Positions 18,969 to 21,168 of a stretch of DNA of 64,000 bases are shown piece after piece. Made by a program: the position numbers and the translations under genes. Below the pieces are notes generated by a model. The model was not told the DNA's origin. It saw only the letters and a program-made list of their open reading frames with translations, and did not search any database. Position 1 is the stretch's first letter. Each line of letters begins with the position of its first letter. The DNA is from Verrucosispora sp. NA02020 (GTDB taxonomy: Bacteria > Actinomycetota > Actinomycetes > Mycobacteriales > Micromonosporaceae): positions 5,146,001 through 5,210,000 of the forward strand of contig NZ_CP054923.1 of the NCBI RefSeq assembly GCF_013364215.1. Reading direction: 5' to 3'.

Positions 18969-19892
18969 ATGAAGGATCCCGTGGCGGACTTCCACACCTG
19001 GGGCATTCCCAGCCGTACCTTCCTGTTTCTCTACCTGGCGGCGGCGCTCGTCCTCGTCGTCGGCACCCTGATCCAACGCCGGGCGCTGCTGTCCGGCCGC
19101 TCCGCGCCCCCCGCCGCCCAGCTCGGCCCGCAGCAGGTCGCCTACCTCAACGGCGGCGAGAACCTGGCGGTCTGGACCGCCATCGGCGCGCTGCGCGGCC
19201 AGGGTGTCATCGGGGTGGACCAGCACCACCGGCTGACCGTCGACGCCCCCCTTCCGCCCGGCGCGACCCCGCTCGACCGCGCCGTCCACCACGCCGCCAG
19301 CCAGCGCTGCCCCGCCCGCCAGGTCATCACGACCGAGTGGGTGAGCCGGGCGCTCACCGAACTCCGGGAGGGGCTGGACCGGCACGGGTTGCTGGTCACC
19401 CCGGAGCAGCGGGCGGCCCTACGGATCGGCCCGCTGCTGATGGCCGTGCTGGCGGCGGTCGGGATCGCGCGCATCTTCGCCGGCGTGGCCAACGGGCGGC
19501 CCGTCTGGTATCTCGTGGCCGTCGTACTCGGGCTCCTGGTGGTGACCACGCTGCTGTTCGCCCTGGTGCCCCGACGGACCCGGGCCGCCGACGCGGCGCT
19601 GGGGCTCCTCCGCATGCGCAACCACCACCTGGCGCCCCACAGCAACCCGTCGTACGCCACCTACGGCGCTGCCGGCACCGCCATGGCGGTGGCCCTCTAC
19701 GGCAGCGCCACGATCTGGGCCATGGACCCCACCTTCGCCCAGCAGGCCGAACTCCAGCGCCAGGCGGCCACCAGCACCGGCGGCACCACCGCCTGTGGCG
19801 GTGGCAGCACCGCAGGCGCCAGCGACAGTGGCGGTGGCTGCGGTGGTGGAGGCGGCGGCGGATGTGGCGGCGGCGGTGGGTGCGGCGGATGA
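18969..19892 (+). CDS. TIGR04222-type membrane protein with Gly/Cys-rich tail
   Basis: A 307-residue membrane protein. It has spans at about residues 15-37 and 150-170, a strong one at 178-200 (WYLVAVVLGLLVVTTLLFALV), and possibly 235-250. The soluble domain between the first and second spans (LNGGENLAVWTAIGALRGQGVI) matches the TIGR04222 'near uncomplex' family, named for its adjacent low-complexity region. The last 35 residues are almost only Gly, Ser and four Cys (CGGGGGGGCGGGGGCGG at the end). AGGAG lies 6 nt before the ATG. Its stop overlaps the start of the DUF692 oxidase as ATGA. The Cys-rich tail is a plausible substrate of that enzyme or a metal-binding tail. This is inference. Confidence 0.85.
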   Translation: MKDPVADFHTWGIPSRTFLFLYLAAALVLVVGTLIQRRALLSGRSAPPAAQLGPQQVAYLNGGENLAVWTAIGALRGQGVIGVDQHHRLTVDAPLPPGATPLDRAVHHAASQRCPARQVITTEWVSRALTELREGLDRHGLLVTPEQRAALRIGPLLMAVLAAVGIARIFAGVANGRPVWYLVAVVLGLLVVTTLLFALVPRRTRAADAALGLLRMRNHHLAPHSNPSYATYGAAGTAMAVALYGSATIWAMDPTFAQQAELQRQAATSTGGTTACGGGSTAGASDSGGGCGGGGGGGCGGGGGCGG

Positions 19893-20704
19893 CCGGCCCG
19901 TACGGGGTCGGCATCGGCTGGCGACCGGAGATCGCCGGATTCGTCGCGGAGCTGCCCGGCCTGCGCTTCGTCGAGGTGGTCGCGGAGGGCGTGTCCCCCA
20001 CCGACCCACCGGACGGGCTGGTCGAGCTGCGACGGCGCGGCGTGACCGTGGTGCCGCACGGGGTACGGCTCTCCCTCGGCGGCACCGATCCGGTCGAGCC
20101 GGCCCGGGTCGGCCACCTGGCGGCGGTCGCCGAACTGCTGGCGGCACCCCTGGTCAGCGAGCACATCGCCTTCGTCCGGGCCGGTGGGCTGGAGGCCGGA
20201 CACCTGCTGCCGCTGCCCCGTACCCGCGAGGCGGTCGACGTGGTCTGCGCCAACGTCGCCCGGGCCCGGGCCGACCTGCCCGTGCCGATCGCGCTGGAGC
20301 CGATCGCCGCGCTGTTCGACTGGCCGGACGACGAACTCGACGAGGCCACCTTCCTCACCGAGATCCTGGACCGCACCGACGCCCTGCTGCTGCTCGACAT
20401 CGCCAACGTGCACGCCAACGCCCGTAACCGGGGCACCGACCCGCTCGCCCTGCTGGACCGACTGCCGTTGGACCGCGTCGCGTACGTACACGTCGCCGGC
20501 GGCGCCGACCACGGCGGCTTCTACCACGACACCCACACCGACCCGGTCAGCCAGGACGTCCTCGACCTGCTCGCCGAGCTGTGCGCGCGACACCGGCCAC
20601 CGGCGGTCATGCTGGAACGCGACGGGCACTACCCGCCCGCCGCCGACCTGCGCGCCGAGTTGGACGCCATCGCCACCGCCAGCGGCTTGCCGGTGGTGAC
20701 GTGA
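19889..20704 (+). CDS. DUF692 multinuclear non-heme iron oxidase (MNIO)
   Basis: A 271-residue TIM-barrel protein of the DUF692/MNIO family (MbnB, TglH, ChrH). All expected metal-ligand motifs are visible: H57 (VVPHGV), H92 (SEHIAFV), E137 (ALEPIA), D170/N173/H175 (LLLDIANVHANA), H201 (YVHVAGG), D214/H216 (YHDTHTDP) and E243 (MLERDGHYPP). Characterised members use two or three irons and O2 to rearrange Cys, Asp or Asn residues in ribosomally made peptides, usually with a partner protein. Here the upstream gene encodes a Cys-rich tail and the downstream gene a small partner-like protein, each with a 4-nt start/stop overlap. The true start is ATG 19889. The longer open frame upstream runs through the TIGR04222 gene in another frame. 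Confidence 0.93.
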   Translation: MTGPYGVGIGWRPEIAGFVAELPGLRFVEVVAEGVSPTDPPDGLVELRRRGVTVVPHGVRLSLGGTDPVEPARVGHLAAVAELLAAPLVSEHIAFVRAGGLEAGHLLPLPRTREAVDVVCANVARARADLPVPIALEPIAALFDWPDDELDEATFLTEILDRTDALLLLDIANVHANARNRGTDPLALLDRLPLDRVAYVHVAGGADHGGFYHDTHTDPVSQDVLDLLAELCARHRPPAVMLERDGHYPPAADLRAELDAIATASGLPVVT

Positions 20705-21168
20705 GCACCGACGCCCACGAGCCACCCGCGCCGGGTGGCACGCTGGCCGAGCGGCAGGCACGACTGGTGGCCGCGCTGGTGGCCGGTGGCGCACCGCCAC
20801 CGGGGTTCGCGCCCGCACCGCTGGCCGCAGCCCGCGCGGCGTTGCTCCGCAAGCGGGCCGGCGAGGTCGCCCGACACTGGCCGCTGCTCACCGCCGCACT
20901 CGGCCCACACTGGCCGTCGGCCTTCCTCACCTGGGCCGCCGACCGGCCCACCGGCGGCGGCCTGCGCGACGGCTGGGATCTGGCCCGCGCGCTCCGCGAC
21001 CGCGCCGAGCTGCCGCCGCTGGGCGCCGAGGAACTCGCCGTGCGCGAAGTCAGCCTGCGCTACGACGGCCGCCGGGCGCCACGCCCCCGCCGGTCCCCCG
21101 CGCTCGCGCACGTCGACGGCGCCGTAGCGATCCAACTCGCCGGCCGCACATACCTCCTGCGGAGGTAA
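20701..21168 (+). CDS. Putative MNIO partner protein (SCO6045-like)
   Basis: A 155-residue protein starting with GTG in a GTGA overlap with the oxidase gene. The first half is a helical segment (LAERQARLVAALVAGGAPPPGFAPAPL), then RKRAGEVARHWPLLTAALGPHWPSAFLTWAAD. The second half is basic and ends AHVDGAVAIQLAGRTYLLRR. It resembles the third gene of the Streptomyces TIGR04222-DUF692 loci (SCO6045-like). In other MNIO systems the gene after the oxidase encodes a partner that binds the precursor peptide (MbnC, TglI, DUF2063). A similar role is inferred here from position and size, not from a recognised domain. A palindromic element follows its stop codon directly. Confidence 0.7.
   Translation: MSTDAHEPPAPGGTLAERQARLVAALVAGGAPPPGFAPAPLAAARAALLRKRAGEVARHWPLLTAALGPHWPSAFLTWAADRPTGGGLRDGWDLARALRDRAELPPLGAEELAVREVSLRYDGRRAPRPRRSPALAHVDGAVAIQLAGRTYLLRR

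Follow-up and report, generated by a model that had tools for sequence, protein, structure and literature searches.

The window analysed here is a stretch of 64,000 nucleotides from Verrucosispora sp. NA02020 (contig NZ_CP054923.1, positions 5,146,001 to 5,210,000), and at positions 18969-21168 it holds three genes on the same strand that encode, in order, a membrane protein of the TIGR04222 family, an oxidase of the multinuclear iron oxidase family (MNIO, DUF692) and a small partner protein. We confirm that the three belong to a conserved system, the basic interpretation of which is published as a prediction (PMC12452194; Antoine and others, 2025; this and the other articles cited below are used from excerpts). 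On balance we favour the view that the trio is a minimal unit in which the cysteines of a cytosolic tail on the TIGR04222 protein would be turned into 5-thiooxazoles and held at the inner face of the membrane, perhaps as Cu(I) ligands. In such a mechanism oxidase and partner would act in the cytosol on the cysteines of the Gly/Ser tail, most likely converting each into a 5-thiooxazole with a loss of 4 Da; the enzyme pair would recognise the tail and not its carrier, the TIGR04222 part would serve as carrier and keep the tail bound to the inner membrane face, and the mature tail would be an anchored array of ligands for soft metals, with Cu(I) the likeliest.

The cysteine tail and its proposed enzyme pair

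The genes and the tail lie as follows:

18969..19892, + strand: TIGR04222 membrane protein of 307 residues, the proposed carrier and substrate (NCBIfam TIGR04222, sequence, AlphaFold model)
19785..19889, + strand: its residues 273-307, a disordered Gly/Ser/Cys tail and the proposed modification site (sequence, model, conservation)
19889..20704, + strand: MNIO (DUF692) oxidase of 271 residues, its ATG within the ATGA overlap (PF05114)
20701..21168, + strand: partner protein, 155 residues if the start is GTG, similar to PME-type 2 partners (position, homologues, model)

The layout described by the sequence-only reading, a trio with overlaps of four nucleotides (ATGA at 19889, GTGA at 20701) and a Gly/Ser tail with four cysteines, is borne out, and AGGAG stands just upstream of the ATG of the TIGR04222 gene (18969). 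Each of the four tail cysteines (276, 291, 299 and 305) is followed by Gly, the terminus is CGG, and the AlphaFold model of the tail has a predicted local distance difference test score (pLDDT) of 41-50 by block.

We surveyed 394 genomes of the actinomycete class, 135 of which have TIGR04222 (106 over the cut-off) and 94 an MNIO; 120 fetched stretches and the window yielded 131 TIGR04222 places among the matches listed, with at least three further over-cut-off places omitted (the second places of genomes G133 and G242 and one of G102). A TIGR04222 place was called linked when an MNIO frame was centred at most 3 kb away, and a tail Gly/Ser-rich when Gly and Ser made up at least 45% of the last 45 residues, as in 76 of the 131; reading frames were taken stop-to-stop, and the tails of L061 and L155 reach the end of the fetched stretch. 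A second, named sample comprised the best 80 of 575 loci and, because it was retrieved with the MNIOs of TIGR04222 loci, its rates are not independent.

At least two cysteines were present in all 57 Gly/Ser-rich TIGR04222 tails near an MNIO, as compared with 9 of the 19 elsewhere (Fisher p 1e-7, kinship ignored), and seven of these nine belong to genomes with an MNIO elsewhere. The remaining 55 places have no Gly/Ser-rich tail; 20 of them stand beside an MNIO, and none of the 20 has two cysteines. Three genomes (G340, G385 and G216) hold both a linked copy with many cysteines and an unlinked Gly-rich paralogue with none. A Cys-tail TIGR04222 protein occurs in 54 of the 68 MNIO-TIGR04222 loci and is missing from the other 14, so proximity to an MNIO does not always mean a Cys tail. 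In the named sample, 50 of 70 Cys-tail TIGR04222 genes overlap the next gene by four nucleotides with a start codon in the MNIO frame, and the overlap is therefore beyond chance. The earlier test asked whether number and spacing of the tail cysteines are conserved beside the oxidase while the remainder of the tail drifts. Their presence is conserved, but both their number (3-7 per last 45 residues) and their spacing (3-26) vary; what is kept is the Gly after Cys and, in close relatives, the CGG end. This end is found in 61/70 named and 22/57 survey tails, and given the latter count we rejected it as a universal signal. As substrate of the oxidase, which is how the sequence-only reading saw it, the tail is well supported by association and not by experiment, and judged from these sequences it is very probably modified by the oxidase.

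The small third gene, earlier read as the partner of the oxidase, had no match in NCBIfam or Pfam at E 0.1, yet this assignment stood up well: a homologue adjoins the MNIO or is fused to it in all 68 survey loci with MNIO and TIGR04222 (as a C-terminal fusion in 37) and is present in all 80 named loci. A simple gene caller found it in only six of the latter, and its constancy rests on the 68/68 and 80/80 counts. Homologues were found neither in the 52 TIGR04222 loci that lack an MNIO nor in the bufferin-type MNIO loci L032-L034. The partner model (pLDDT 93.2) has MbnC (7dz9) as its best solved match. PME-type 2 partners are defined as lying directly 3' of the MNIO without a DUF2063 signature, and by a helical N-terminal domain that is sometimes followed by a part, whole or truncated, resembling a recognition element of ribosomally synthesised and post-translationally modified peptides (RiPPs); the window partner lies directly 3' of the MNIO and gave no match to PF09836 (DUF2063), the signature by which bufferin and captophorin partners are recognised.

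The oxidase scores 266.4 bits against PF05114 (cut-off 25). All ten residues that we take, from the earlier list and from general knowledge of the family, to be metal ligands are present, as had been claimed, and nine of them (H57, H92, E137, D170, N173, H201, D214, H216 and E243) are invariant in the 68 survey homologues. The tenth, H175 (20411-20413), is His in 42 of the 68 (29 of the 54 and 13 of the 14) and Tyr, Trp or Arg in the other 26, and is therefore not an obligatory ligand.

Carriers and the face of the membrane

The tail is also found without TIGR04222. The 92 survey MNIO genes of at least 200 bits (counted by eye) comprise those of the 68 TIGR04222 loci, L075, L032-L034 and 20 others; in these 20 further loci no TIGR04222 profile match was found, and 19 of them have the partner family. 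We searched for reading frames of at least 45 residues on the same strand and within 3 kb of the MNIO, whose last 45 residues contain a minimum of three Cys and 20 Gly+Ser and no more than four Arg+Pro. Such frames were present in 54/54 Cys-tail loci, 0/14 other TIGR04222 loci and 10/20 of the further MNIO loci, and absent from L075; among 52 control places with TIGR04222 and no MNIO, scanned on both strands with the TIGR04222 proteins themselves excluded, there was one.

Eight of the ten alternative carriers are single-span proteins of 83-119 residues with Cys/Gly/His tails beside MNIO and partner (L262-L264, L266, L270, L272, L275 and L280), encoded between the two in seven loci and last in L280. 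In the seven single-span carriers measured, 4-7 Lys/Arg directly follow the span and precede the tail. The other two, of 438 and 447 residues, have no hydrophobic span:

L274:4348-5706, - strand: soluble Cys-Gly-tail protein upstream of an MNIO-partner fusion (tail-frame rule)
L276:2016-3446, + strand: soluble Cys-Gly-tail protein upstream of an MNIO-partner fusion (tail-frame rule)

None of the alternative carriers compared (five with NCBIfam, four with Pfam) matched a family above cut-off, and a quick MNIO tree, many of whose branches are weak, requires three carrier switches. Taken together, 88 partner-bearing MNIO genes are accompanied by a Cys-tail TIGR04222 protein (54), a single-span protein (8), a soluble Cys-tail protein (2) or no such tail within 3 kb (24); a tail is near in 15 of 35 cases in genus g27 and in 49 of 53 elsewhere. 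More tentatively, a transplantable Cys-Gly tail on unrelated carriers may be matured by one oxidase-partner pair into a cytosolic thiooxazole array, mostly at the inner side of the actinobacterial membrane, that acts as a protein-bound, never-released copper buffer or sensor.

Thirteen g27 loci (L077, L079, L080, L085, L089-L093, L097, L099, L104 and L107) have MNIO-partner fusions with an intact active site and no nearby Cys/Gly tail, and a tail-less TIGR04222 protein is encoded downstream of these fusions. Clustering of Cys-containing frames from 13 loci of this genus gave long genes and probable shadow frames, with no clear small Cys-rich candidate for an alternative substrate. Genomes G100, G111 and G356 combine a tail-less MNIO locus with a Cys-tail TIGR04222 protein elsewhere in the genome. 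A Cys/Gly tail was likewise not found at the Rhodococcus loci L255 and L256 or at the Virgisporangium locus L216. In the excerpts of PMC12452194, very small proteins encoded after MNIO genes (adjamnio-V) are listed as being of unknown function.

The TIGR04222 protein itself scores 161.5 bits against its NCBIfam model (cut-off 43), matches no Pfam family and has an AlphaFold model of mean pLDDT 86.5. Its segments were compared in a hydropathy alignment of 93 family members (score at least 70):

19011..19091, + strand: transmembrane span 1 (helix 15-41), with the N-terminus predicted to lie outside (model, hydropathy)
19128..19382, + strand: residues 54-138, soluble loop domain, weakly GPP34/GOLPH3-like and predicted to be cytosolic (hhalign)
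19401..19562, + strand: transmembrane span 2 (helix 145-174) and span 3 (helix 180-198) (model, hydropathy)
19653..19745, + strand: residues 229-259, the fourth segment, with helices 229-244, 247-252 and 254-259, probably not transmembrane (model, hydropathy)

Among linked Cys-tail members the hydropathy threshold is reached by span 1 in 94% (of 52 scored), by span 2 in 96% and by span 3 in 100% (of 54 each). The fourth segment reaches it in 13% of the 54 and has a mean of 2.4 charged residues, and the model breaks it at G245 and D253 into helices of 16, 6 and 6 residues. The protein is thus multi-span, as the sequence-only reading had it, with three clear spans and a doubtful fourth. Behind span 3 the sequence carries a net positive charge in 98% of the 54 members, as against 26% for the loop that joins spans 2 and 3; by the positive-inside rule this bias would place both the loop domain and the C-terminal end on the cytosolic side. 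By hhalign the loop domain resembles GPP34/GOLPH3 (PF05719) with a probability of 61-72% (E 3e-5 to 8e-5; two control profiles below 1%). In eukaryotes this domain is cytosolic.

The predicted topology therefore favours a tail on the cytosolic face, though not in every member, and the single-span and soluble carriers speak for the same side; we consider it probable that the tail remains in the cytosol. As the enzyme pair is assumed to be cytosolic, modification would take place there under any reading of the topology.

Chemistry of the tail and competing explanations

The 66 survey tails with at least two cysteines (57 linked, nine not) contain 298 Cys, and the next residue is Gly for 251 of them, Ser for 41, Ala for five and Glu for one. 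The Cys-Gly rate of 84% compares with a mean of 49% after each tail was shuffled (300 shuffles, maximum 56%). Gly follows 264 of 306 tail Cys in the named sample, with Ser after the other 42, and all 48 tail Cys of the alternative carriers. Pro was not found within two residues of a tail Cys in the survey tails or the named sample, and a charged neighbour occurs at two tail Cys in the former and one in the latter. This context resembles the substrate preference of FonBC, which makes 5-thiooxazoles with a loss of 8 Da when the substrate has two sites. FonBC favours a small residue behind Cys, with one Cys-Tyr variant still modified, and does not tolerate Pro (PMC12668002). The same enzyme needs its base Asp, as the Asp249Ala variant left the peptide unmodified (PMC12668002). 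The window oxidase has D245 (20621-20623), which, like R12, is invariant in the 68 homologues; its E-R-D motif aligns with E-R-D of 3bww, so D245 is likely the equivalent of the proposed catalytic base. In the same alignment to solved relatives, the residue after the motif is Phe in 3bww, Gly in the window oxidase and variable in the homologue set, and the 8hci chain (TglH, going by its entry 8hi7) has Gln at the base position.

Compared with the NCBIfam equivalogs, the window oxidase is nearest to BufB, the bufferin maturase (181.8 bits, cut-off 310), followed by HvfB (151.5, cut-off 360), ApyH (112, cut-off 400), ChrH (55.6, cut-off 600) and MbnB (24.7, cut-off 325). As all these scores, BufB's included, lie well under their cut-offs, no characterised MNIO reaction can be transferred to it. 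By analogy with FonBC we regard a thiooxazole as the moderately probable product. A metal role is proposed because 5-thiooxazole peptides bind copper (PMC12668002, PMC12538549), and copper binding by the tail is, on this analogy, possible but somewhat doubtful.

A number of observations weigh against the tethered thiooxazole array. Four of the 35 unlinked proteins whose tail is not Gly/Ser-rich have at least two cysteines, two Cys-bearing low-complexity tails are present in genomes without an MNIO match (L150, L155), and an unlinked Cys-rich tail occurs in genome G249 (L122). A kinship-aware test of linkage on 100 of the 131 proteins (score at least 60, match at least 150 residues) gave a median p of 0.25 with only six supported pairs, 2.8-3.1 of which went the same way, at most 0.1 the opposite way and about three showed no difference; when linkage was replaced by an MNIO anywhere in the genome, 0.6 went the same way and 5.3 showed no difference. 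The direction agrees for linkage, and the test is too small. The tail-less partner-bearing MNIO genes, 20 of the 24 in genus g27, also weigh against the array: the ligands are intact in the 14 loci examined, so that the substrate of the oxidase must there be a different one or be encoded far away. By a cruder scan, net charge after the last hydrophobic block was negative in 19/57 and positive in 35/57 members, some of which have a plausible further span before the tail (L130, L111). Finally, no copper gene was found among the window neighbours scanned by family profiles.

The published reading, in which a further transmembrane span precedes the tail and the modified tail lies outside the membrane in the manner of a bufferin, is inferred from predicted spans (PMC12452194) and agrees with a fourth segment that is hydrophobic in some members. 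We consider it unlikely in view of how seldom that segment passes the threshold, of its breakage into short helices, and of the Lys/Arg clusters on seven single-span carriers and the lack of any span in two others. We give equally little credence to a different MNIO reaction on the tail, be it oxazolone-thioamide formation, removal of the beta-carbon or another: MNIOs are chemically diverse (PMC12452194, PMC12668002) and the window oxidase falls under every equivalog cut-off, but the ranking of the scores, with BufB at the top, the base Asp, which is Gln in TglH, and the Cys-Gly context all fit enzymes that form 5-thiooxazoles.

If instead the oxidase acted on some other substrate, the Cys tail would be an unmodified thiol metal binder that shares its operon. 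The 24 tail-less genes with their intact ligands would be at home in this scheme, which is nevertheless quite improbable, as such tails go with the MNIO on three carrier types and Cys-Gly is far above chance. Least probable by a wide margin is that the cysteines are a functionless by-product of slippage in GC-rich repeats (GGC to TGC). Gly and Cys codons are indeed one base apart and the tails are repeat-like, but Gly/Ser-rich tails with fewer than two Cys make up 10/19 away from an MNIO and 0/57 near one, and the Gly codons of 70 tails are mixed (GGC 57%, GGT 16%, GGG 14%, GGA 14%), unlike the product of fresh slippage. Small peptides, many of them exported, are the usual targets of RiPP-type chemistry. 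If the tethered array is real, this chemistry would extend to anchored resident proteins across a large bacterial phylum, with an MNIO-made modification on a resident protein and not on a secreted peptide, and metals might be handled by a tethered route. Judging by the carrier swaps, the enzyme pair may need no more than a short Cys-Gly tail for its recruitment, in which case the tail could serve as a tag.

Distribution and relation to known systems

The genome of strain NA02020 comprises two contigs (7.28 Mb) with a single match each to TIGR04222 and MNIO, and the closest named relatives of the window oxidase are from Micromonospora (among the best 80 of 575). The trio is flanked by genes of the HAD, TetR, SDR, ABC and enoyl-CoA hydratase families, which we rejected as members of the system: in the named sample they recur almost only in genera that we take to be Micromonosporaceae and in one metagenome-assembled genome. 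TIGR04222 and MNIO occur also in Actinomadura, Pseudonocardia, Nakamurella, Dermacoccus and others. At L190:4076-7129, from a relative of Verrucosispora, the frame is broken within the tail repeat, be it by an assembly error or in reality.

A likeness to methanobactin biosynthesis would be in gene order, MbnA-MbnB-MbnC, where the precursor is a short peptide; MbnB was the lowest-scoring of the five MNIO models against the window oxidase. The GPP34/GOLPH3 domain (PF05719) is related to the TIGR04222 loop domain by weak profile similarity. The three MNIOs of L032-L034, which we called bufferin-type, score 366-370 bits, and the gene after the MNIO has DUF2063 in L032 and L034. In both of these DUF2063-partner loci (L032:2288-3133 and L034:2318-3136) there follows a gene that is ferritin-like to the eye.

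Our full-text literature search found no experimental work on TIGR04222 proteins. That their tails are MNIO substrates, put forward by the sequence-only reading as a new substrate class, is already in print as a prediction: PMC12452194 proposes subsets of TIGR04222 proteins as substrates, shows a Micromonospora example, and assigns to this family 40% of more than 1,000 Cys-containing proteins that lack a predicted Sec signal peptide and are encoded before MNIO genes. The partners are there termed PME-type 2; no fewer than 10% of TIGR04222 clusters are predicted to encode one, and a partner seems to be missing from many that combine TIGR04222 with an MNIO (PMC12452194). These clusters have the same three families and the same kind of tail as the window, but in the published account the tail is placed outside and the partner is often absent, whereas we find the partner in 68 of 68 loci (37 fused), read the tail as probably cytosolic and find it on other carriers. 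Captophorins and bufferins (FonABC, PMC12668002) share with the window a Cys followed by a small residue, the base Asp, an oxidase-partner pair and a flexible Cys-rich substrate; they differ in that their precursor is a peptide, with a Sec signal as a mark of the class, and their partner a DUF2063 protein, whereas in the window the proposed substrate is the tail of a protein and the partner does not match DUF2063. New in our analysis are the constant partner with its many fusions, the carrier swaps, the match of the Cys-Gly context to thiooxazole enzymes and the predicted cytosolic topology.

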